Shown: positions 17,138 to 37,963 of the stretch, one piece after another
Layout of the letters: every line of letters begins with the position of its first letter
Position numbering within the stretch: the first letter of the stretch is position 1
Source of the DNA: Deltaproteobacteria bacterium
GTDB taxonomy: Bacteria > Desulfobacterota > Dissulfuribacteria > Dissulfuribacterales > UBA5754
Direction of reading: 5' to 3'
DNA length: 38,722 nucleotides
Assembly (NCBI GenBank): GCA_036574075.1
Contig: JAINCN010000044.1
Location: 1 to 38,722 of the forward strand
Program-made: the position numbers and the translations under genes
Notes under the pieces: generated by a model
What the model was told of the DNA's origin: nothing
Seen by the model: only the letters and a program-made list of their open reading frames with translations
The model's database searches: none

Positions 17138-17218
17138 TCTGGATGTCTTCAGGCATCTTTCACACCGGCCAAAACCGCTGTTATGACGGCTCCGGCCAGG
17201 AAATCACCGTCAGGGCAT

Positions 17219-17258
17219 GGGCCAGGATGCCGAATATCGCTACGGCATCCCGTGGCCC
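17219..17258 (+). terminator. Strong hairpin downstream of mnmG, possible terminator
   Basis: GGGCCA (17219-17224) plus GGATGCCG pairs with CGGCATCC plus TGGCCC (17253-17258), a 14-bp stem with a two-base bulge and a 10-base loop. Only a short TTTT follows (17267-17270), so intrinsic termination is uncertain. It could instead be a remnant of a palindromic repeat. Confidence 0.4.
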
Positions 17259-17406
17259 GACCCCCGTTTTACCGCCTCGGAGCAGCAGGAGAGATTGGCA
17301 ATGGTGCGGTGTTTGACCTTTGCGTTTTCGCGGAATGATTCCCGCAGGAGATGGCGGGTATATCTTTACCGCTTTAGACGGAATGAGAGGTGTCGACATA
17401 TATATA
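17259..17406. other. Unexplained segment after mnmG
   Basis: I recognise no gene here. A plus-frame stretch near 17330-17404 translates into a protein-like run (GMIPAGDGGYIF, then TALDGMRGVDIYI) without a start or ribosome site. It may be a fragment of a decayed gene. It ends where the homology to the MITE-like repeat begins. Confidence 0.3.
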
Positions 17407-17492
17407 CCCATCCATGGGGCATTGCCGTTCGAGCCCCGTCCGTGGGCGCCTCACTCCACAAATACCCCGGCCCGTAGGCTCACGGATTCAAG
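17407..17492. repeat. MITE-like repeat, copy 3 (truncated)
   Basis: It matches the inner core (CATGGGGCATTGCCGTTCGAG, GGGCGCCTCACTCCACAAATACC) and the outer arm CCGTAGG. It ends with CTCACGGATTCAAG (17479-17492), a one-base variant of the terminal repeat. The other half is missing. The core is oriented as in copy 4, but the terminus is the short type, so it appears rearranged. It forms the upstream boundary of the sat region. Confidence 0.75.
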
Positions 17493-17755
17493 TGATAGTC
17501 AATTTGAGCGCCGGGACATCCGTTGAAGACCTCGAATCAGGATTTTAGATGAAGCGCATCATAGCTCAAATATCCAATTATTTCAAGTTAATAAACCATA
17601 TTTTCGGCAAGAAGCTCATGGATCCAGGGAGATTTTAAAACGATTTCCTATCATCTCACCTCTTCCCTTGCAATTGTTCTGTTCCTGTGTTAACTTTCAA
17701 TTTCTGAATGGGAATTCATTTTTTTAAAAAAACCTAAACCTAAGGAGGTGTCCGA
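17493..17755. other. AT-rich leader upstream of sat
   Basis: This stretch has no coding potential. Base composition drops abruptly from the G+C-rich mnmG side to A+T-rich DNA. It holds the possible sat promoter (17668-17696) and the AAGGAGG ribosome site (17741-17747). Confidence 0.4.
17668..17696 (+). promoter_or_regulatory. Possible sat promoter
   Basis: TTGCAA and TAACTT are separated by 17 bp, about 60 bp before the sat start. The matches are only four and three of six, so this is a weak candidate. It was chosen because spacing and position are right. Confidence 0.3.
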
Positions 17756-19114
17756 ATGTCGCGTTATTTTATCCACAGGCCATTGCCTTATGGAGGCAGA
17801 ATTATCGAGCGAGTTGTACGGGACCCTGAGCGGGCGAGGAAAATGATCAAAGGTTGCCCAACCTTCGATATCAAGCCCACGCTCCACTATGATACAGGTG
17901 TCCCTGTAAGAAACGTTTACAGGGAGATCATGAGCACGTGTTATGGCTTTTTCAGCCCAGTGGAGGGCTCCATGACCAAGGCAGAGGTGGAGCGGGTCCT
18001 CAAGGAGAGGAGGCTTCTCAGCGACTGCATCTTCCCCTATCCCCTTGTCTTTGATATCAGCAAAGAGGATCTGAAAAACCTCGGTGTGGGCCCAGGAGAT
18101 AGATTGGTCCTCAATCTCAAGGGGAAGCCTTTTGCTTTCATTGATATCCAGGAGATATGGGAGATCCCAGACACAGAGGAATTCGCAGACAGAGTCTTTG
18201 GTGACCCCGAAAAGAATCCAGAGGTGGTAAGGGAGAAGTTCAACAAGAAGCATCCTGGATGGGTCATCTACAAGAGTCTCAATCCCATGGTCATTGCTGG
18301 AAAGTACTCCATCATAAACGAACCAGTGTTTCGTCCACCCTTTGATCGTTTCTGGTATCCACCCAAAAAGGCCAGGGAAGAGTTTGACAAGAGGGGATGG
18401 AGGACTGTCATCGCTCACCAGACCCGTAACGTACCCCATGTGGGCCACGAGTTCCTTATGAAGAATGCTGCATTCACAGGGGATCTGGAGCCCTGCCAGG
18501 GGATACTTGTAAATGCAGTCATTGGTGTGAAGCGCCGGGGTGATTATCCAGATGAGACCATTTTAGAAGCCCATGAGGCAGTGAATACAGGGAACTACAT
18601 CAAAAGCTCCCGTCATCTGGTGTCAATGCTTCTCTGGGATATGCGCTACGGCAACCCCTTGGAGAGCCTCCTCCATGGTATTGTCCGTCAGAACATGGGT
18701 TGTACTCACCATATGTTCGGGCGTGACCATGCTGCTGTTGGCGAGTACTATGACAAGTGGGCCACCCAGATACTATGGAATAAGGGTATCCCCAGCTTTG
18801 GATTCCCAGCACCTCCCACTGACGTCCCATATGGCGTTGATATCAGGCCCCAGAACATGATGGAGTTTTCTTACTGCCCCACTTGTAAGGAGATGGCCTA
18901 CAGTGAGACCTGCGGCCATAAGAGGGAGAAATTGAGTGGAAGCTTTTTGCGTGGAATGGTGGCCCAGGGCGTACAGCCGCCAAGCATCATCATGCGTCCC
19001 GAGGTCTACAAGGTCGTAGTCAAGTGGTGGAAGCACTTCAATTATCCGTTCTGCAACGAGAAATATGTAATCAACAAAGAGAAAGACCTTGAAGTGGATC
19101 TCAAGGATTTATAA
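17756..19114 (+). CDS. sat: Sulfate adenylyltransferase (ATP sulfurylase), archaeal-type
   Basis: Forms APS and pyrophosphate from sulfate and ATP (or ATP from APS in the reverse direction), the first step of dissimilatory sulfate reduction. It has 452 residues. Active-site motifs are QTRNVPHVGHE (222-232) and GRDHAAVG (322-329). A probable zinc site is C374, C377, C386 and H388 (YCPTCKEMAYSETCGH). The blocks VYREIMSTCYGFFSPVEGSM, RRGDYPDE and SFGFPAPP closely follow the Archaeoglobus enzyme as I remember it. It has a good AAGGAGG site. Base composition is more A+T-rich than mnmG. It is followed by a small gene and flanked on both sides by MITE-like copies; aprBA is 11 kb away. Transfer is inferred, not shown. 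Confidence 0.95.
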   Translation: MSRYFIHRPLPYGGRIIERVVRDPERARKMIKGCPTFDIKPTLHYDTGVPVRNVYREIMSTCYGFFSPVEGSMTKAEVERVLKERRLLSDCIFPYPLVFDISKEDLKNLGVGPGDRLVLNLKGKPFAFIDIQEIWEIPDTEEFADRVFGDPEKNPEVVREKFNKKHPGWVIYKSLNPMVIAGKYSIINEPVFRPPFDRFWYPPKKAREEFDKRGWRTVIAHQTRNVPHVGHEFLMKNAAFTGDLEPCQGILVNAVIGVKRRGDYPDETILEAHEAVNTGNYIKSSRHLVSMLLWDMRYGNPLESLLHGIVRQNMGCTHHMFGRDHAAVGEYYDKWATQILWNKGIPSFGFPAPPTDVPYGVDIRPQNMMEFSYCPTCKEMAYSETCGHKREKLSGSFLRGMVAQGVQPPSIIMRPEVYKVVVKWWKHFNYPFCNEKYVINKEKDLEVDLKDL

Positions 19115-19148
19115 TAAACCATAAATCGATTGGAGTGAGGTAAGAAAA

Positions 19149-19505
19149 ATGGCAAATTATTTTTTCGATGTATTACTAGATGAAGGCCGTTTGAAGGCTA
19201 TAAAGGATGCTGGCTTAGCAGATCACGTAAAAAACAGGTTTGCAGGTGAACTTAAGCTCGTAGAAGTAAGTGTTTCAGAAGACACAAAGAACAAGGTCTT
19301 GAATGAGTTTGACACTGCGAGGACAGACTCAAGAAACGCCATAACAGATGTCCCTGTGGCCTTTATGAGAGAACTCTATCATCAGGTTATAGCAAAGAAG
19401 TCCCTTGGAGATGATGCTGTGCTTGCAGTCCTTGAAAAGGTAGCTGAGATAAAAGACCTTGCTTCAAAGGAATCAGAGTACCTGCCAGCTCCTGAGATAG
19501 CTTAG
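19149..19505 (+). CDS. Unknown 118-residue protein encoded with sat
   Basis: I do not recognise a named family. A small soluble acidic, mostly helical protein begins MANYFFDVLLDEGRLKAIKD and ends ESEYLPAPEIA. It has no cysteine, signal peptide or membrane segment. A GGAGTGAGG ribosome site precedes the ATG. It lies 34 bp after sat and before a strong terminator, so it is almost certainly co-transcribed with sat. Its size and place recall the small open reading frame next to sat in the Archaeoglobus sat-apr locus (from memory). It may be an accessory or regulatory partner of Sat. It is notably A+T-rich compared with neighbouring genes. Confidence 0.8.
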   Translation: MANYFFDVLLDEGRLKAIKDAGLADHVKNRFAGELKLVEVSVSEDTKNKVLNEFDTARTDSRNAITDVPVAFMRELYHQVIAKKSLGDDAVLAVLEKVAEIKDLASKESEYLPAPEIA

Positions 19506-19536
19506 CGATCTCATCGCTTAGACAAGTATCTATAGG

Positions 19537-19574
19537 AAAAGCCGCCTTGCTGTATTAGTGAGGCGGCTTTTTTA
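19537..19574 (+). terminator. Rho-independent terminator of the sat unit
   Basis: AAGCCGCCT (19539-19547) pairs with AGGCGGCTT (19561-19569) around a 13-base loop and runs into a T-tract. It closes the sat plus small-gene transcript. Confidence 0.92.
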
Positions 19575-19626
19575 ATGGGGATTTTTAGATGACTGCCCCA
19601 CGGGATGCGGTGTCTAAAGATATGGT

Positions 19627-19800
19627 CCTGAATCCGTGGGCCTACGGCCGGGGTATTTGTTTCGTGCGGCAAATAGCCCCGTCCGTGGGGGCGGATTTGC
19701 CGTTCGAGCCCCGTCCATGGGCGCCTCACTCCACAAATACCCCGAACGTCGGCTTATTGTGAAAAATTGCCAAGTTAAGTTCATATCTCACGGATTCAGG
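19627..19800 (-). mobile_element. MITE-like repeat, copy 4 (full length, inverted)
   Basis: This copy is 174 bp, bounded by CCTGAATCCGTGGG (19627-19640) and CTCACGGATTCAGG (19787-19800). Read in reverse it aligns with copy 2 throughout, including CCTGAATCCGTGAGATATG and the AATAAGCC junction. Flanking pentamers (ATGGT and AACCC) do not match, so the target duplication is lost or ends were rearranged. It abuts the glnS remnant directly. Confidence 0.85.
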
Positions 19801-19802
19801 AA

Positions 19803-19885
19803 CCCATAAAGGAGATCATAGAACGCGATCTGGAGGCAGGGAAACACAAGGGTGTGGTCACCTGTTTCCTCCAGAACCCAATGGA
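19803..19885 (+). pseudogene. glnS: Remnant of the 5' end of glnS (glutaminyl-tRNA synthetase)
   Basis: In one frame the segment reads PIKEIIERDLEAGKHKGVVT, then in the next frame FPPEPNG followed by a stop (TAA). Together these match the conserved GlnRS N-terminus (xFIxxIIxxDLxxGKH...VxTRFPPEPNGYLHIGHAK). One base is missing in the codon between T and F (19863-19864), and nothing of the enzyme remains after 19885. The fragment begins directly at the end of repeat copy 4. Upstream of the repeat, an ATG at 19589 opens a 12-codon run that might be the original start, but that is speculative. Confidence 0.75.
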
Positions 19886-19916
19886 TAAATCCGTTTTAAG
19901 ATCGGCTGGTGGATAT

Positions 19917-29146: not shown

Positions 29147-29779
29147 TCACACATTCGGCAACACATCTCCCTCGGCCTTTTTTCGCAGGGATTCCAGTTC
29201 CTGCCACGTATTGGCGTTCGCAAGAAAGGAAAGATCGGGAGAATAGAGAGAGAGTTCCGATTCCGAAACGGGTCTGAGGGGGACGGACTGCAGGAGTTCC
29301 CGAACGCTTCGAATCCCTCGATCGAGGGCGAGTACAATTACAGGTGCAAGGGATACGTGATAGATGGCATGGAGGGGCTCGATCCCCCTCGACGTGACGG
29401 GCAGGACGACGGGTGCCCACGTGGTGATCCTCCACATGTGATCCATGACCTCGGGGAGAATGCACGGCATGTCGCAGCCGAGGACGAAGACGCGGTTTGC
29501 CGGGGCGATCTCAAGGGCGGCCAGGATGCCAGAAAGCGGGCCTTTCCCAGGATGGGTGTCATGTATGATGATTGCGGGGAGATCCGTATAGGCGCACGAG
29601 TCGTTTGTCACGATGTACACGGCCTCTGATACCCGCCATGCCGTATTTACGATATGGGCGATGACGGATCGCTGCCCCCATGGGGCAAGGGCCTTGTTCG
29701 AACCGAAACGGGAACTTTTCCCCCCGGCCAAAACGGCAGTTATGCGGATCTCATCGGAATGTGCGTGCTTTTTTTTCAT
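29147..29779 (-). CDS. mobA: Molybdenum cofactor guanylyltransferase
   Basis: Attaches GMP to molybdopterin to make the bis-MGD cofactor of many molybdenum/tungsten oxidoreductases. It has 210 residues. The nucleotide-binding start AVLAGGKSSRFGSNKAL (about 15-31) and VLGCDMPCILPEV (about 98-110) are diagnostic; GIEPLHAIYH follows. Cofactor for enzymes such as formate dehydrogenase is inferred. It diverges from the apr promoter; no other molybdenum-cofactor gene is adjacent. Confidence 0.92.
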   Translation of the reverse strand: MKKKHAHSDEIRITAVLAGGKSSRFGSNKALAPWGQRSVIAHIVNTAWRVSEAVYIVTNDSCAYTDLPAIIIHDTHPGKGPLSGILAALEIAPANRVFVLGCDMPCILPEVMDHMWRITTWAPVVLPVTSRGIEPLHAIYHVSLAPVIVLALDRGIRSVRELLQSVPLRPVSESELSLYSPDLSFLANANTWQELESLRKKAEGDVLPNV

Positions 29780-30050: not shown

Positions 30051-30221
30051 ATGGCACTGGTCAAACCACATGGTTCTAAAGAACCTTCTTGCCTCTTCTC
30101 CTTACGGGCGTTGCCCGTGACGACGAGGCCAAGCGCGCTGAGAAGAAGATGAAGCGCGTGAGGACCCGGTGACGTGCTCAAGCTCGGGATGGGGGCCTTT
30201 ACCCCTCTAAATGGTTTCATG
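30051..30221 (+). pseudogene. sat: Decayed bacterial-type sat (5' remnant) upstream of aprB
   Basis: An ATG at 30051, with an AAAGGAG site a little upstream, opens MALVKPHGSKE, the start of bacterial dissimilatory Sat (compare M-KLVxPHGGK). A frame change near 30086 continues as LPLLLTGVARDDEAKRAEKK then MKRVRTR and a stop. A second change at about 30168 restores GDVLKLGMGAFTPLNGFM, which matches the conserved GxIxMLGIGGFTPLxGFM block. Homology then fades; the catalytic QTRNPxH and GRDHAG regions are gone. It is therefore a non-functional relic of a different sat type from the intact gene at 17756, in the ancestral sat-aprBA position. Confidence 0.85.
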
Positions 30222-30474
30222 GTGAAGGCAGCACCTACCCCAAGGCAAGGAAGACAGGATCGTCGTGAGGAGCACCAAGTTCAGGAGGCCCATGTGTGAG
30301 GGTGGCGATGTGCCCACAGCCAGAATCTGACGGAGAAGGTCACCATCAAAAAGGGTGCCTTCGAGGATCTGCCGAAGTAGAGGAAAAGGTTGTTCTGGCG
30401 GGGTCGTGACGAGTGCGGCCCCGATACACGTCAAAAACGGGATTACACCCGAAATCAAAAAAGGAGGTAAAACG
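30222..30474. other. Unexplained DNA between the sat relic and aprB
   Basis: No gene is recognised. Short protein-like runs occur in changing frames (for example EDRIVVRSTKFRRPMC from about 30249, LTEKVTIKKGAFEDLPK from about 30328), suggesting further decayed coding DNA, but I cannot match them. It ends with the AAGGAGG ribosome site of aprB. Confidence 0.4.
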
Positions 30475-30912
30475 ATGCCAAGCTTTGTCAACCCCGAAAA
30501 GTGTGACGGTTGCAAGGGCGGTGAGAAGACAGCGTGCATGTACATCTGCCCCAACGACCTCATGGTTCTCAATCCCGACACCATGAGGGCCTACAACCAG
30601 GAGCCGGATCAGTGCTGGGAGTGTTATTCCTGCGTGAAGATCTGTCCCCAGGGCGCCATCGAGGTCCGTCATTATGCCGACATCGCCCCCATGGGAGGTT
30701 ATGTCCAGCCCATGCGTGGAACCGATTCCATCATGTGGACCGTCAAGTTCCGTAATGGCAACATGAAGAGGTTCAAGTTCCCCATTCGGACAACTCCTGA
30801 AGGCTCCATCAAGGCTTATGCGGGAAAGCCTACTGGCGGAAACCTGGATGACGGGCTGCTCTTCACCGAGTCTCCCGGGCGTGCCAACTGCAAGCCTTCT
30901 GACTTCAGCTAA
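30475..30912 (+). CDS. aprB: Adenylylsulfate reductase, beta subunit
   Basis: Ferredoxin-like subunit carrying two 4Fe-4S clusters that pass electrons to the FAD of AprA. The start at 30475 (MPSFVNPEKC) follows AAGGAGG; the open frame upstream is not coding. It has 145 residues. The cluster motifs are CDGCKGGEKTACMYICP (about 10-26) and CWECYSCVKICP (about 47-58). The C-terminal tail (TPEGSIKAYAGKP...DDGLLF) that wraps around AprA is present. It is followed 59 bp later by aprA. Confidence 0.98.
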   Translation: MPSFVNPEKCDGCKGGEKTACMYICPNDLMVLNPDTMRAYNQEPDQCWECYSCVKICPQGAIEVRHYADIAPMGGYVQPMRGTDSIMWTVKFRNGNMKRFKFPIRTTPEGSIKAYAGKPTGGNLDDGLLFTESPGRANCKPSDFS

Positions 30913-30971: not shown

Positions 30972-32978
30972 ATGGCACTTCCGAACAAGCCAAATTGGGA
31001 ACTGCTTGCCGAGCCGGATCTGTCCAAGGTCCCTGTTCAGGAGTTTGAATACGACGCCCTGATCGTGGGTGGTGGTATGGCCGCCTGCGGTGCCGCCTAT
31101 GAGATCGGTCGCTGGATGCCCGCCGGCTCCAAGGTGTGTCTCGTAGATAAGGCCGCTCTCGAGCGTTCCGGCGCTGTTGCCCAGGGTCTTTCGGCCATCA
31201 ACACCTACATCGGCGAGAACACCCCTGCCGATTACGTCCGCATGGTCCGCAACGACCTCATGGGCATCGTCCGCGAGGACCTCATCTTTGACCTCGGCCG
31301 TCACGTGGACGATTCCGTCCATCTTTTTGAGGAGTGGGGCCTTCCCATCTGGAAGAAGCACGGAACCGATCAGAGCAAGAAGCTTGTCGAGGGCGGCGAG
31401 CCCGTCCGCACCGGTAAGTGGCAGATCATGATCAATGGCGAGTCCTACAAGTGCATCGTGGCTGAGGCCGCCAAGGCCGCGCTCGCCGAGATGGGCTACG
31501 ACCTCCATGAGAGGGTCTTTATAGTCAAGCTCCTTCTTGACGCCAACAAGCCCAATACCATCGCTGGCGCCGTTGGATTCAGTGTCCGCGAGAACAAGAT
31601 CTGCATCTACAAGGCAAAGGCCATCATGGTAGCATGCGGCGGTGCAGTCAACATCTTCCGCCCCCGCTCGACCGACGAAGGAAAGGGCCGTGCCTGGTAT
31701 CCTGTCTGGAACGCCGGATCCACCTACGCCATGTGCATGCAGGTGGGCGCCGAGATGACCATGATGGAGAACCGTTTCACCCCGTCCCGCTTCAAGGATG
31801 GCTACGGCCCGGTTGGCGCGTGGTTCCTTCTCTTCAAGGCCACGGTTACTAACGGTAAGGGTGAGCATTACTTAAAGAGCGATGCCGCCAAGGCAGAGCT
31901 ACAGAAGTACGCCCCCTACGGCTTGGCTCCGGTTATTCCAACCTGTCTCCGGAACCATCTCATGCTTTTTGAGATGAAGGAAGGCCGTGGTCCTGTCTAT
32001 ATGGATACCGCCGCCGCCCTGAAGTCCTTCATGGATGCCAAGAAGGCCGAGGGCATGGGCGATAAGGAACTCAAGAAGTACTGGAAGGAGCTCGAGAGTG
32101 AGGCATGGGAGGACTTCCTTGACATGTCCGTGGGTCAGGCCGGCCTCTGGGCCTCCATGAACATCGAGCCTGAGAATGTGGGCTCTGAGATCATGCCCAC
32201 CGAGCCCTACATGCTCGGCTCCCACTCCGGTTGCTGTGGCATCTGGGTCTCTGGTCCGGATGAGGACTGGGTCCCAGATGACTACAAGATCAAGGCCGAC
32301 AATGGCAAGGTCTATAACCGCATGACCACGGTCAACGGCCTCTTTACCGCTGGTGACGGCGTAGGTGCCTCTGGGCACAAGTTCTCATCCGGATCCCATG
32401 CAGAAGGCCGTATAGCTGCCAAGGCCATGGCCCGCTACGTGCGTGACCATGCGGACTTCAAGCCCACGCTCAAGCAGTCCGCCGACGAGCTCAAGGCCGA
32501 GATATACAAGCCGGTTGTTACGTATTATGCGAACTACCAGAAGACCACGCACGAGATGGTCAACCCCAACTACATCAAGCCTCGCCATCTTTCCGAGCGT
32601 ATGATGAAGTACACTGACGAGTACGGAGCAGGATGGTCTCCGTACTACATGACCAACGGGAAGCTTCTCGAGATTGTCATGAGGCACCTTCAGTGGATGC
32701 GTGAAGACTCTGAGAAGCTTGCAGCCGCTGGACTTCACGAGCTTCTCAGGGCGTGGGAAAACTACCACAGGATCTGGACGGTCGAGTCTCACCTCCGCCA
32801 TATCCAGTTCCGCGAAGAGACCCGGTATCCTGGATTCTACTATCGCGGTGACTTCCCCAAGGCCGATACAAGGCCCATGGAAGAGGGTGGATGGTTCTGC
32901 TTTGTGAACTCGAAGTACGATCCTGAAAAGGGTGAGTGGTCCGTCTTCAAGAGGAAGCTCCATAAGATTATTCCGTAA
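30972..32978 (+). CDS. aprA: Adenylylsulfate reductase, alpha subunit
   Basis: FAD subunit of APS reductase; catalyses APS + 2e- to sulfite + AMP in the cytoplasm, and the reverse in sulfur oxidation or disproportionation. The 668-residue length is full. Near the N-terminus DALIVGGGMAACGAAYEIG (about 27-45) is the FAD-binding fold. Further on are SGAVAQGLSAINTYIGENTP (about 66-85), GSHSGCCGIWVSGPDEDW, and TTVNGLFTAGDGVGASGHKF, which are characteristic of AprA. A GGAGG site precedes the ATG. It has the common aprBA order; a terminator follows. Direction of flux cannot be read from sequence. Confidence 0.98.
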   Translation: MALPNKPNWELLAEPDLSKVPVQEFEYDALIVGGGMAACGAAYEIGRWMPAGSKVCLVDKAALERSGAVAQGLSAINTYIGENTPADYVRMVRNDLMGIVREDLIFDLGRHVDDSVHLFEEWGLPIWKKHGTDQSKKLVEGGEPVRTGKWQIMINGESYKCIVAEAAKAALAEMGYDLHERVFIVKLLLDANKPNTIAGAVGFSVRENKICIYKAKAIMVACGGAVNIFRPRSTDEGKGRAWYPVWNAGSTYAMCMQVGAEMTMMENRFTPSRFKDGYGPVGAWFLLFKATVTNGKGEHYLKSDAAKAELQKYAPYGLAPVIPTCLRNHLMLFEMKEGRGPVYMDTAAALKSFMDAKKAEGMGDKELKKYWKELESEAWEDFLDMSVGQAGLWASMNIEPENVGSEIMPTEPYMLGSHSGCCGIWVSGPDEDWVPDDYKIKADNGKVYNRMTTVNGLFTAGDGVGASGHKFSSGSHAEGRIAAKAMARYVRDHADFKPTLKQSADELKAEIYKPVVTYYANYQKTTHEMVNPNYIKPRHLSERMMKYTDEYGAGWSPYYMTNGKLLEIVMRHLQWMREDSEKLAAAGLHELLRAWENYHRIWTVESHLRHIQFREETRYPGFYYRGDFPKADTRPMEEGGWFCFVNSKYDPEKGEWSVFKRKLHKIIP

Positions 32979-33161: not shown

Positions 33162-34409
33162 ATGAGTAACAGCATCCTTGTCATAGGTGGCGGTTTTAGC
33201 GGCCTTACTGCGGCCGTTGAAGCAGCCGAAATGGGCTACGATGTCTACATCGTCGAAAAGGAGCCATATTTGGGGGGAAGGGTGGCGCAGTTGAACAAAT
33301 ATTTCCCCAAGATGTGTCCTCCCACATGCGGACTCGAGATAAATTTCAAGCGGATCAAGACGAATCCCCGCATCACCTTTTATAGCCTGTCCACCGTCGA
33401 GTCAGTGACGGGATCCGCTGGCAATTTCTCCGTCAGGCTGAAGGTGAACCCCAGGTACACCACCCCTCAGGCGACAAACTGCAAGCCCGGAGTCGATGTC
33501 GCTACGAGTGAGTTTCCCAATGATTTCAACTTCGGCCTCAACACGCGCAAGGGGATCTACATGCCCCATCCCATGGCCTTCCCGAATCAGTGCGTGGTTG
33601 ATGCACGGGTGGCAGGCACTGATGAAGGCAAGAAGATCCAGCAGGCCATGCCTGCAGGACATGTGGATCTAACTCAGACGGCCGAGACCGTGGAGCTTAC
33701 GGTTGGGTCCATTATCGTTGCAACCGGGTGGAGGCCCTATGACGCCACGAAATTGGATCGCCTCGCCTTTGGGAAATTCCCCAACATCGTTACGAACATG
33801 ATGGTGGAAAGGATGGCCTCGCCATCCGGTCCCACAGGTGGGAAGATCGTCAGGCAGTCCGACAAGGCCGAGCCGAAAACAGTTGGCTTTGTGCAGTGTG
33901 CCGGTTCTCGCGACAAGGACCACCTTCCCTTTTGTTCCTATATCTGCTGTAATGCCACATTGAAGCAGACTCTGTATCTGAGGGAACAGAATCCTGATAC
34001 GGAAATATATGTATTTTACATCGATATTCGTTCGCCTGGCCGCAAATATGAAAATTTTTACGCCAAGGTAAAGTCCGATCCCAAGGTACATTTCATCAAG
34101 GGAAAGGTAGCCGAGGTAAAGCCCGGGCAGGGCACAGATAATGTCATCCTTGTCGCTGAGAATACTATCGGAGGAGGCAAGATCGAGCAGGAGGTAGAGC
34201 TTGCAGTCCTTGCCACCGGTATGCAGCCGACCGGTGCCATCGAACCTATTGCTGGCATAGAGTATGATTCAGACGGCTTTGTCGTCCCAAGGGAGGGTAT
34301 CATCCCCTGTGGATGCGCCAAGAGACCTATTGATGTTGTTTCATCCGCACAAAGCGCAACTGCAGCAGCCCTGAAGGCTGTGCAGACAATTGTCAGGAGG
34401 GCAGGCTAA
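33162..34409 (+). CDS. qmoA: Qmo complex subunit A (HdrA-like FAD protein)
   Basis: QmoABC is the membrane-bound quinone-interacting oxidoreductase that exchanges electrons with APS reductase. QmoA is a soluble FAD flavoprotein related to HdrA of 415 residues. The dinucleotide fold ILVIGGGFSGLTAAVEAAEMG lies at about 5-25. KMCPPTCGLEINF (about 51-63) is a Cys motif near the flavin. VGFVQCAGSRDKDHLPFCSYICC (about 246-268) is the HdrA-type cysteine region, and the C-terminus holds VLATGMQP. An AAGGAG site precedes the start. Its stop overlaps the qmoB start (TAATG). Confidence 0.96.
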   Translation: MSNSILVIGGGFSGLTAAVEAAEMGYDVYIVEKEPYLGGRVAQLNKYFPKMCPPTCGLEINFKRIKTNPRITFYSLSTVESVTGSAGNFSVRLKVNPRYTTPQATNCKPGVDVATSEFPNDFNFGLNTRKGIYMPHPMAFPNQCVVDARVAGTDEGKKIQQAMPAGHVDLTQTAETVELTVGSIIVATGWRPYDATKLDRLAFGKFPNIVTNMMVERMASPSGPTGGKIVRQSDKAEPKTVGFVQCAGSRDKDHLPFCSYICCNATLKQTLYLREQNPDTEIYVFYIDIRSPGRKYENFYAKVKSDPKVHFIKGKVAEVKPGQGTDNVILVAENTIGGGKIEQEVELAVLATGMQPTGAIEPIAGIEYDSDGFVVPREGIIPCGCAKRPIDVVSSAQSATAAALKAVQTIVRRAG

Positions 34410-36718
34410 TGTCACGAAAGATTGGTGTTTATATCTATACAGGTGACGGGATCGGTGAGGCTCTTGATGTAGAGAAGCTTACCGAAGTGGCGACTGAGTC
34501 GGGCGCTGCCGTAGTGCGAACGCACGCGGATCTCTATTCACCCGACGGTGTTGCCATGGTGAAACAGGATATTGAAGGCGAGGGTGTCAATGCGATCGTT
34601 CTTGCTGGAATATCCCCTCGTTATGAATACAAGACGTTCGACTTTCCCGGTGTCATCCTGGAAAAGACGAGCCTGCGCGAGCTTGTTGTCTGGAGCCATC
34701 CTGTTGCCGGTGATGACGAAAAGGCGAAGGAGCATGTCCAGGAACTGGCCGAAGACTATATACGCATGTCCGTTACTAAATGCAAAAAGGCGCAGCTTCC
34801 TACTCCAGACAAGATGGAGGCTCCGAGTAAGCGGATTCTTGTTATAGGGGGTGGCATCACCGGCCTTACTGCGGCACTTGAGGCAGCTGAGGCAGGCTTC
34901 GAGGCCACCATTGTTGAAAGGGAGGGGGAACTGGGTGGCTATGCTGCAAAGCTCCGCAAGCAATTTCCCGTAGGGCCTACCTATTCCGAGCTAGTTTCTC
35001 CAATGGTGCAGGATCTCATCTCGAAGGTAAAGTCCAACTCTAAAATTCAAGTACTTACGTCCACCGAAATAGCTCGTATCAGCGGTGTCCCCGGTCGATA
35101 CCGTGTATCCATGAAACCTACAGGTACCAAAAGCGAGTGGGATGCCCCAGTTCCCCTTACGCCTGAGGAAAAACTCGACGCGTCAGGAAACGAACTCTCT
35201 GCAGAGGACCAGAAAAAGGTCTATGCGGCAAAGAACGAAGGCCGAAAGGATTACATGATCGAGAATACGGATGCCGAGATCTTTGGCGCTGTGATCGTCG
35301 CAGCTGGCTGGAAACCTTATATCCCCCGGGATGGCGAGTTTGCCCATCTTGGATGGGGAAATCCCAACGTTTTAACGAACCACCAGTTCGAGGAGATAGC
35401 GAAAAAGGGAAAGATCGTACGCCCATCAGATGGCAAGGAGGTGAAGTCCGTTGCCTTCATTCAGAGCCCTGGGGCCACGGAAGACGACGCAGACTTTCCC
35501 TATGCATCTGCGGTTACGAGCATGGTATCTCTGAAGCAGGCCAAATATCTTAGGGAAGATCAGCCGGCTGATGGACGTGCATATGTGTTCTATCAACATA
35601 TGCGTACTCCAGGTCAATATGAGTATTTTTACAAGGGCCTTCAGGATGATGTGGGTATTTTCCTGACAAAAGGCGCTGTGACAGAGGTAAAGGATAACGG
35701 CCAGGGTGGTCTCTCCGTTACCGCGACGAAGACCATACTCGGAGAGGACGTCGTGGTGGACGTGGATCTCGTTGTCCTTGCCACTGGCATGGTCCCCACA
35801 ACAAGGGATGAGGCGGTGGTGAATCTTGCGTATCGTCAGGGGCCGGCCTTCCGCGACCTTGATCTCTTCGGCGGTTACTGCGATTCCAACTTCATCTGTT
35901 TCCCTTACGAAACACGGCGGACAGGTATCTACGCCGCTGGAGCCGTTCACCGTTCTATGAATATCGAGGAATCCATGGAGGATGCTGCTGGCGCAGTGCT
36001 CAAGGCCATCCAGTGCATAAAGGCCGCGGAGGAGGGCCATGCCGTTCATCCTCGAACATGGGATTTTGATTATCCTGATTTCTATTTCCAGAGGTGCACC
36101 CAATGCAAGCGCTGTACTGAGGAGTGTCCCTTCGGAGCCCTGGATGACGACGAGAAGGGTACCCCCAAGCCTAACCCAACGCGCTGCCGCAGATGCGGAA
36201 CATGCATGGGAGCGTGTCCTGAGCGAATCATCGGGTTCAAAGACTACAACATCGATGTTGTCGGATCCATGATCAAATCCGTCGAGGTCCCAGACGATGA
36301 CGAAGAAAAACTTCGCATGATCGTCTTTGCCTGTGAAAACGACGCATATCCGGCCTTGGACATGGCTGCAGCCAAAGGTCTTTCATGGTCGCCGCTGGTC
36401 CGTATCATTCCGGTCAGGTGCCTCGGATCGGTCAATGTGGCATGGATCAAGGACGCCATGTCAAGCGGTATGGACGGCGTCCTGCTTCTCGGCTGCAGGT
36501 TTGGCGATGACTACCAGTGCCACTTCGTCAAAGGCAGTGAATTGGCGAATCGTCGAATGGAAAACGCCGCTGAAACCTTGAAGTCTCTGGGCATGGAGCC
36601 GGAACGCGTCACTCTTGCCCAGGTGGCTATCGACGAGTATGATAAGGTTCCCGGCATTATAAATGAGTTCGTCGAAGGAATCCTTGGACTCGGACCAAAT
36701 CCGTTCAAGGGTTTCTAA
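34409..36718 (+). CDS. qmoB: Qmo complex subunit B (HdrA-like, MvhD-fused)
   Basis: A 769-residue flavo-iron-sulfur subunit. An N-terminal domain (about 1-140) precedes the FAD fold ILVIGGGITGLTAALEAAEAG (about 145-165). Further HdrA-like sequence is followed by two 4Fe-4S motifs: CTQCKRCTEECPFGALD and CRRCGTCMGACPERIIG (about 563-610). A C-terminal MvhD/HdrD-like domain (IVFACENDAYPA, GVLLLGCRFGDDYQCHF) takes electrons via further cysteines. The Cys motif near the flavin of QmoA (CPPTCG) is replaced here by a cysteine-free stretch, as usual for QmoB. It is coupled to qmoA. Confidence 0.96.
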   Translation: MSRKIGVYIYTGDGIGEALDVEKLTEVATESGAAVVRTHADLYSPDGVAMVKQDIEGEGVNAIVLAGISPRYEYKTFDFPGVILEKTSLRELVVWSHPVAGDDEKAKEHVQELAEDYIRMSVTKCKKAQLPTPDKMEAPSKRILVIGGGITGLTAALEAAEAGFEATIVEREGELGGYAAKLRKQFPVGPTYSELVSPMVQDLISKVKSNSKIQVLTSTEIARISGVPGRYRVSMKPTGTKSEWDAPVPLTPEEKLDASGNELSAEDQKKVYAAKNEGRKDYMIENTDAEIFGAVIVAAGWKPYIPRDGEFAHLGWGNPNVLTNHQFEEIAKKGKIVRPSDGKEVKSVAFIQSPGATEDDADFPYASAVTSMVSLKQAKYLREDQPADGRAYVFYQHMRTPGQYEYFYKGLQDDVGIFLTKGAVTEVKDNGQGGLSVTATKTILGEDVVVDVDLVVLATGMVPTTRDEAVVNLAYRQGPAFRDLDLFGGYCDSNFICFPYETRRTGIYAAGAVHRSMNIEESMEDAAGAVLKAIQCIKAAEEGHAVHPRTWDFDYPDFYFQRCTQCKRCTEECPFGALDDDEKGTPKPNPTRCRRCGTCMGACPERIIGFKDYNIDVVGSMIKSVEVPDDDEEKLRMIVFACENDAYPALDMAAAKGLSWSPLVRIIPVRCLGSVNVAWIKDAMSSGMDGVLLLGCRFGDDYQCHFVKGSELANRRMENAAETLKSLGMEPERVTLAQVAIDEYDKVPGIINEFVEGILGLGPNPFKGF

Positions 36719-36730
36719 GGGAGGAAAACC

Positions 36731-37963
36731 ATGGCTGAACTGCAGAGGGTGCAGCCCGATCTCTCCTTCATAAAGGGTGTCATGGAGTCGGGTGGGGAAA
36801 CCGTCAAGCGCTGTTATCAATGCGCGACATGTTCCATTGTCTGCCCACTCTCCACGGAAGAGAGCCCTTTTCCGCGTAAAGAAATGCTATGGACCCAGTG
36901 GGGCCTGGCAGGGAAGGTTTCTGGGGATGTGGATGTCTGGCTCTGCCACCAATGCGGTGACTGCAGCAAGTATTGTCCACGCGATGCCCGTCCGGGAGAT
37001 GTCCTCGGTGCCATCCGGGCCAATGCCATACGTTATTACGCTGAGCCAAAGTTTCTCGCTGACATGTTAAGCAAGCCGAGTGGCGTGGTCGGTGCAGTAA
37101 TTGCGGCCATGGTCATTGTGCTCGTGGTTGCCGGCCTGTGGTCCCAGGTGTCGGGAGAGGCATTTCCCTTCCCGGAGGGGGATGTAGTGTATCACAAGTT
37201 CTTGAGCGTCATTCCTATTGACGCTATTTTTCTGAGCCTGGTTGGTTTTGTGGTTTTTATTTCATATCGCGGAGTTGTGAATTTCTGGCAGGACATAAGC
37301 AAGGGAGCGGGCCTTCCCAAGTCCTTCACAGGGACTTATCCAGCCCCCCCTATAGGGGTCCTTGTGGCACAGTATGTGTGGCCATCAATCCTTGAGATTT
37401 TGAGCCATACCCGCTTCAAGAAATGCGGCCAAACGGCCGAGCGGGCCAAGGGACATCTCTGGGTATTGTGGTCCTTTATCATCCTCTTTGTCGTAACCAA
37501 CTTCGTCTTCATTGCAGAGGACATGTTTCATGCCGCTCTTGGATTGATCGGCCCCGTCACTCCCATGCCCCAGTATCATCCTGTAAAGATCCTTGCCAAC
37601 ATAGGAGCGATCATGCTGGTTGCAGGTATCTGGATGATCAAGGCCATGAGGGATCAGAAGACCGAAGAGGGAGTCCTGCACAGTTCTTCGCAGGATTGGA
37701 TCTTGATATGGCTCATATTTGCAGTTGGGGCAACAGGCATTGCTTCAGAGCTTTTCCGTCTTATCAATGTGGCTCAGATAGCCTATCCCGTTTATGTTTC
37801 CCACCTCGGATGTGTGGCAGTGCTCTTCCTTTCCGTTCCGTACACAAAGTTTGGACATCTTGTGTATCGAACAACTGCCTATGTATTTGATCGCTGGGCC
37901 AAGGATGTGAAGGCGGGCAAGGCGGGCTTCGGCCTTGAGAAGGCGATTGGATCCGACCATTGA
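36731..37963 (+). CDS. qmoC: Qmo complex subunit C (HdrC/E fusion, membrane heme b)
   Basis: A 410-residue subunit. The N-terminal HdrC-like domain has two 4Fe-4S motifs, CYQCATCSIVCP (about 28-39) and CHQCGDCSKYCP (about 73-84). A C-terminal membrane part with about six helices (starting VVGAVIAAMVIVLVVAGL near 118) contains His residues that may hold heme b and the quinone site. A GGGAGGAAAACC leader precedes the ATG. It links the soluble AB subunits to the quinone pool. It is the last gene of qmoABC, 12 bp after qmoB. Confidence 0.96.
   Translation: MAELQRVQPDLSFIKGVMESGGETVKRCYQCATCSIVCPLSTEESPFPRKEMLWTQWGLAGKVSGDVDVWLCHQCGDCSKYCPRDARPGDVLGAIRANAIRYYAEPKFLADMLSKPSGVVGAVIAAMVIVLVVAGLWSQVSGEAFPFPEGDVVYHKFLSVIPIDAIFLSLVGFVVFISYRGVVNFWQDISKGAGLPKSFTGTYPAPPIGVLVAQYVWPSILEILSHTRFKKCGQTAERAKGHLWVLWSFIILFVVTNFVFIAEDMFHAALGLIGPVTPMPQYHPVKILANIGAIMLVAGIWMIKAMRDQKTEEGVLHSSSQDWILIWLIFAVGATGIASELFRLINVAQIAYPVYVSHLGCVAVLFLSVPYTKFGHLVYRTTAYVFDRWAKDVKAGKAGFGLEKAIGSDH

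Follow-up and report, generated by a model that had tools for sequence, protein, structure and literature searches.

Organisation of the locus

The window, meaning the whole 38,722-nucleotide stretch analysed here, corresponds to contig C44 in a draft genome of 1.99 Mb and 66 contigs (99.9% complete) from the order Dissulfuribacterales. On its forward strand it carries an intact gene for an A-type ATP sulfurylase of 452 aa (sat, 17756–19114), recognised by its open reading frame and by PF01747 and NF003166. This is the sole stand-alone Sat found in the genome; the one other match is weak and lies in a 662-aa frame that we read as a bifunctional SAT/APS kinase. The gene that follows on the same strand is also intact (19149–19505, 118 aa) and matches DUF6955 (PF22271, 97.7 bits), which bears out the claim of the first-pass annotation, made from the sequence alone, that an intact sat and a small gene stand together here. 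The predicted model of the DUF6955 protein has a pLDDT of 89.6; a fold search of the PDB returned no match (best E 1.5) and no paper on DUF6955 was found in the literature searched.

A leader or promoter region, apparently carried with the cassette (17663–17755, forward strand), was recognised by DNA homology to the upstream regions of relatives, with 69% identity over 94 bp to those of genomes G013 and G005, and AAGGAGGTG ahead of the start codon is conserved across relatives. Downstream lies a predicted terminator hairpin, AAGCCGCCTTGCTGTATTAGTGAGGCGGCTTTTTT (19538–19573, forward strand), identified by alignment with other intergenic regions and near-identical in G013 alone among the relatives compared. 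Judged by these features, sat and the DUF6955 gene read as an intact unit, equipped with a leader and a terminator of their own.

The QTRN, HxxHE and GRDHA motifs and the Cys-rich zinc motifs are all present in the window Sat, and comparison with the Sat of G013 gave a dN of 0.074 and a dS of 1.78. Because dN is far below dS and the motifs and zinc ligands are intact, the imported enzyme is evidently under strong purifying selection. Presumably it supplies sulfate activation, or else the reverse step from APS to ATP in sulfur disproportionation; in sulfur disproportionators, Sat and AprAB have been proposed to run in reverse, making ATP (PMC4911364). The direction in which Sat would run in the window organism is likewise a matter of presumption.

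The cassette had been described as more A+T-rich than its neighbours, and comparison of codon composition upholds this for one gene of the two: the GC3 of the DUF6955 gene is clearly low (37.3%), while that of sat (60.8%) falls within the range spanned by the host's own qmoB and qmoA (56.8–61.7%). As the GC3 of sat is that of the host, A+T-richness was dropped as proof of foreign origin.

Relics of glnS and of the native sat

Two pieces of a decayed glnS lie beyond the terminator, on the forward strand. The 5′ piece (19589–19626; ATGACTGCCCC..., MTAPRDAVSKDMV) was identified by homology to G013, and the DNA homology between the window and that genome extends to 19598, the glnS start of G013. 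The second piece (19801–19889; EPIKEIIERDLEAGKHKGVVT..., then FPPEPNG in another frame) matches the glnS of G013 in blastn (E 2e-7), at the expected spacing, and in tblastn (E 3e-4), and a frameshift precedes its truncation. Thus the relic of glnS suspected next to the cassette is real. In G005 and G013 the order is sat-DUF6955-glnS followed by a gltX-like gene, and the window follows this order as far as glnS, of which a relic remains. Intact glnS was not found in the window genome (G000) or in G001, G004 and G010, the three B-type genomes checked for it. Since the relic is homologous to the start of the donor-type glnS, the fragment would have travelled with the cassette, and most simply, sat and glnS DNA would have arrived together, with the repeat now lodged in the relic coming afterwards.

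The second ruin lies some distance away, at 30051–30380 on the forward strand, where 330 bp align with the intact 419-aa sat of G001, the window's congener (E 3e-50). Start and stop codons are kept and the first 27 bases are identical to the G001 gene; a 1-bp deletion follows base 27, approximately 900 bp are missing from the middle, in-frame stops are present and the 3′ end is preserved. The local alignment scores 216, whereas the best of 200 shuffles reached 29, and the dead bacterial sat that had been placed upstream of aprBA is thereby confirmed.

To the left of this relic lies a mobA-like gene (29147–29779, reverse strand), assigned by synteny as the conserved neighbour of the native sat locus, and to the right, on the forward strand, are intact copies of aprB (30475–30912), aprA (30972–32978, 93% identical to G001) and qmoA, qmoB and qmoC (33162–37963). 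The order mobA, sat, aprBA recurs in G001, G004, G006 and G010, while the mobA-like gene is similarly placed, without sat, in G005, G013 and G019. The interval between mobA and aprB is best read, from this synteny, as the ancestral site of the native sat. G001 has an intact native sat there, and in the window the native orthologue has decayed in place. In f5, another family of the order, to which G013 belongs, no sat was detectable in the interval, and remnants of a native sat sought in f5, G025, G022 and G018 were not detected.

MITE-like repeats

The cassette lies between two copies of a repeat of approximately 174 bp that is non-coding and has terminal inverted repeats. A truncated copy occupies 17407–17492, on the left side of the insert, and a full copy, with the ends CCTGAATCCGTGAG and CTCACGGATTCAGG, occupies 19627–19800, between the two glnS pieces. 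The first-pass annotation had both copies in place and took the full one to be inverted; the pair is in fact direct (17422–17469 against 19697–19744, 98%). Like MITEs, the repeat is short and non-coding, with inverted ends and a high copy number, and 5–6 bp duplications are present at many copies, although no clean target-site duplication was seen at 19627–19800; the difference is that it has no shown part in the transfer of sat. Approximately 486 terminal ends in the 1.99 Mb (3 for a control pattern) correspond to approximately 240 copies, or one per 8 kb, and the window alone holds four. The family is present in G001 and was not found in f5 or in other genera of the order among the relatives searched.

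At such a density, being flanked by the repeat is weak evidence of transfer. The full copy is, moreover, inside the co-transferred glnS fragment, so the repeat is not the boundary of the cassette, contrary to what had been proposed, and repeat-mediated capture is ruled out. Nor does the arrangement correspond to a composite transposon, as there is no element at the right boundary and no match to the repeat was found in f5, the donor family. The stretch to the left of the truncated copy (17138–17406) gave weak matches only; within it, 28 bp (17158–17185) resemble the 5′ end of mobA at 29.7 kb (86%, E 0.02), possibly as a remnant of that gene, possibly by chance.

When a genome is a draft of 66 contigs and repeats, which commonly cause mis-joins, stand on both sides of a cassette, there is the concern that the cassette was joined to the contig by an assembly error or is a contaminant. 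Here, however, a genus-specific repeat sits within the transferred segment, both flanks align collinearly with G001 at 87–91%, and a genome that is 99.9% complete would be left with no dissimilatory Sat if the cassette were removed. We regard an artefact as scarcely credible.

The congener gave a partial answer on synteny. Its native sat is intact and the cassette was not found in it, an absence that is not certain in a genome approximately 83% complete. Its contig breaks off within mnmG, and on the tRNA-Ser side the DNA has been rearranged to a place next to rpmI, so an empty insertion site is unreadable. The tRNA-Ser gene of G001, by tadA, adjoins rpmI (L147:8365-8830), and a short MITE end lies there along with another kind of repeat; the two congeners thus differ by a rearrangement with a breakpoint at this spot. 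In other families of the order, mnmG is followed by a different gene.

Phylogeny and origin of the cassette

When the Sat and DUF6955 proteins are concatenated, the resulting tree places the window within the cassettes of f5 and of f9, a further family of the order (98/97), as sister to G013 (90/73). A clade of f5 and f9 that leaves out the window was rejected (p-AU 0.015 for the concatenation, 6e-5 for DUF6955 alone), as was a grouping of the window with G022 (p-AU 0.0039). The Sat of the window sits on a long branch, and the best tree of Sat alone has f5 and f9 together without the window, with support of 55/26, so the nesting is not decided by that protein alone. The MnmG tree instead joins the window to G001 (97/90) and sets f5 apart as a separate clade (100/99). 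Given this conflict, the pair has a history that differs from that of the rest of the genome, and sat and the DUF6955 gene appear phylogenetically foreign to their host. The f9 cassettes of G025 and G035 (L062, L063) also nest in f5, which suggests a second transfer out of that family.

In a broader tree, A-type and A′-type Sat fall on the same side as the Methanothermococcus enzyme, an archaeal Sat (97), and the native Sat on the opposite side; long branches meet at that point, and the archaea are represented by the Methanothermococcus Sat (PDB 8a8d) alone. This placement, together with the repeats on both sides of the cassette, is what favours the proposal that sat came from an Archaeoglobus-like archaeon and was mobilised by the flanking MITE-like repeats. 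The nearest relatives of the window Sat are nevertheless bacteria of the same order, at 85–87% identity, the full repeat interrupts the transferred DNA, the gene order of the donor contradicts mobilisation by the repeats, and the repeats are direct and abundant in the genome, with no match to them in the donor family or in any other genus of the order among the relatives searched. An archaeal source delivered in this way is highly improbable. The phylogenetic check thus agreed with the idea of a foreign Sat and disagreed with its source: the immediate donor would be a bacterium from within the order, this Sat type occurs widely among thermophilic Desulfobacterota, and an archaeal origin concerns at most the deep ancestry of A-type Sat.

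It could also be argued that no recent transfer took place, the ancestor of the order having held both a native sat and sat-DUF6955-glnS, with the cassette then lost from G001 and others and the native gene from the window. The divergence of Sat between the window and f5 (13%) resembles that of AprA (13–15%), which speaks for such a history, and a clade of f5 and f9 excluding the window is not rejected by Sat alone. Set against this, the DUF6955 and concatenated trees nest the window in f5, of the terminators compared, that of G013 alone is shared with the window, the cassette is missing from the congener and from most families of the order, and many parallel losses of both cassette and glnS would be demanded. 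We consider ancient coexistence unlikely.

A probable displacement of the native sat

The reading we prefer, with a probability of approximately 0.87, is a xenologous displacement, from bacterium to bacterium and caught midway, of the native sat by one from an f5 bacterium. The gene order, homologies, tree topology and relics are directly observed; from them we infer the direction of the transfer and the order of gains and losses, and likewise a means of DNA uptake. A segment comprising promoter, sat, DUF6955 gene, terminator and the start of glnS would have moved from an f5 bacterium, of which G013 is the nearest known, into the lineage of the window after its split from G001, with mnmG on one side of its landing site and a tRNA-Ser gene on the other. 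This would have made the native sat next to aprBA redundant, and a frameshift and the loss of a large internal part would then have ruined it, leaving aprBA-qmoABC intact. The glnS fragment, of no use in its truncated form, would have decayed as well, and a resident MITE-like repeat would have inserted into its relic later. That a transferred sat took over from the native gene was already the core of the first-pass annotation, and the nested phylogeny, the intact native sat of G001 and the co-transfer of glnS all speak for it.

As in other cases of xenologous (non-orthologous) gene displacement, a transferred homologue would serve the same reaction, the native gene is lost with a relic left behind, and the operon partners remain intact. 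The window differs in keeping both fossils, the native gene at its original site and part of the donor's glnS at the far end of the import, and it is a new and unusually clear case of an already known process. It is a frequent assumption that genes of central energy metabolism share the history of the organism that carries them, and sat serves as a marker gene for both sulfate reduction and sulfur disproportionation. In Dissulfuribacterales, sat trees would track transfer, and the copy at work may be one that lies far from aprBA. The stages of replacement can be read across genomes: native gene intact (G001), both types together (G004 and loci L077 and L081), ruin plus import (the window) and native gene gone (f5). 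Coexistence of both types in those three indicates that the intermediate state is viable.

Dissulfurirhabdus thermomarina, of the same order, has two sat genes that are 29% identical (PMC7463578). By our identification these would be a native-type and a DUF6955-linked Sat, which fits G004; unlike in the window, both are intact, the second falls in the A′ clade, which is more distant, and displacement was not described.

Distribution of the A-type Sat and DUF6955

A search of the contig collection found Sat at 71–87% identity to the window in 21 loci, all from Desulfobacterota where named and many from thermophiles. DUF6955 directly follows sat in every one of the 21, and in at least nine the order runs on into aprBA and mostly qmoABC too. 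This sat-DUF6955-aprBA-qmoABC operon of Caldimicrobium, Desulfothermus and other thermophilic Desulfobacterota shares with the window the Sat type and the adjacent DUF6955; in Dissulfuribacterales, the window included, the transferred pair is a separate unit at a distance from aprBA. Among relatives within the order, 8 of the 45 searched have an A-type Sat, and native Sat was absent from those eight at the level that detects it in other relatives.

The top-scoring DUF6955 loci (L061–L081, L148–L177) adjoin an A-type or A′-type sat wherever the contig is readable, as do three further copies, while a lower-scoring subfamily (L222, L226–L232) has no sat linkage. From this gene linkage we hypothesise that one Sat type has DUF6955 as its partner, a role for which it is a strong candidate. 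More tentatively, the two genes may form a self-contained, transferable module for sulfate activation, with DUF6955 as a required partner, that displaced the aprBA-linked native sat some five times within Dissulfuribacterales; we think this possible and would not yet favour it.

Viral carriage was considered and set aside, as no relative was found in the viral contigs, and so was plasmid carriage, plasmids having Sat at below 60% identity only (best 39.5%). An unannotated Klebsiella plasmid record (NZ_CP061967.1:17731-18963) encodes a Sat 39.5% identical to that of the window, which is odd for that host and possibly contamination. PF22271 was also matched in Sulfolobus acidocaldarius. The assembly of Desulfothermus okinawensis JCM 13304 shows its sat (L079:4418-5775) broken in two by a frameshift. 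In L077 and L081, a native-type and an A-type sat lie side by side in divergent orientation, possibly an early stage of displacement.
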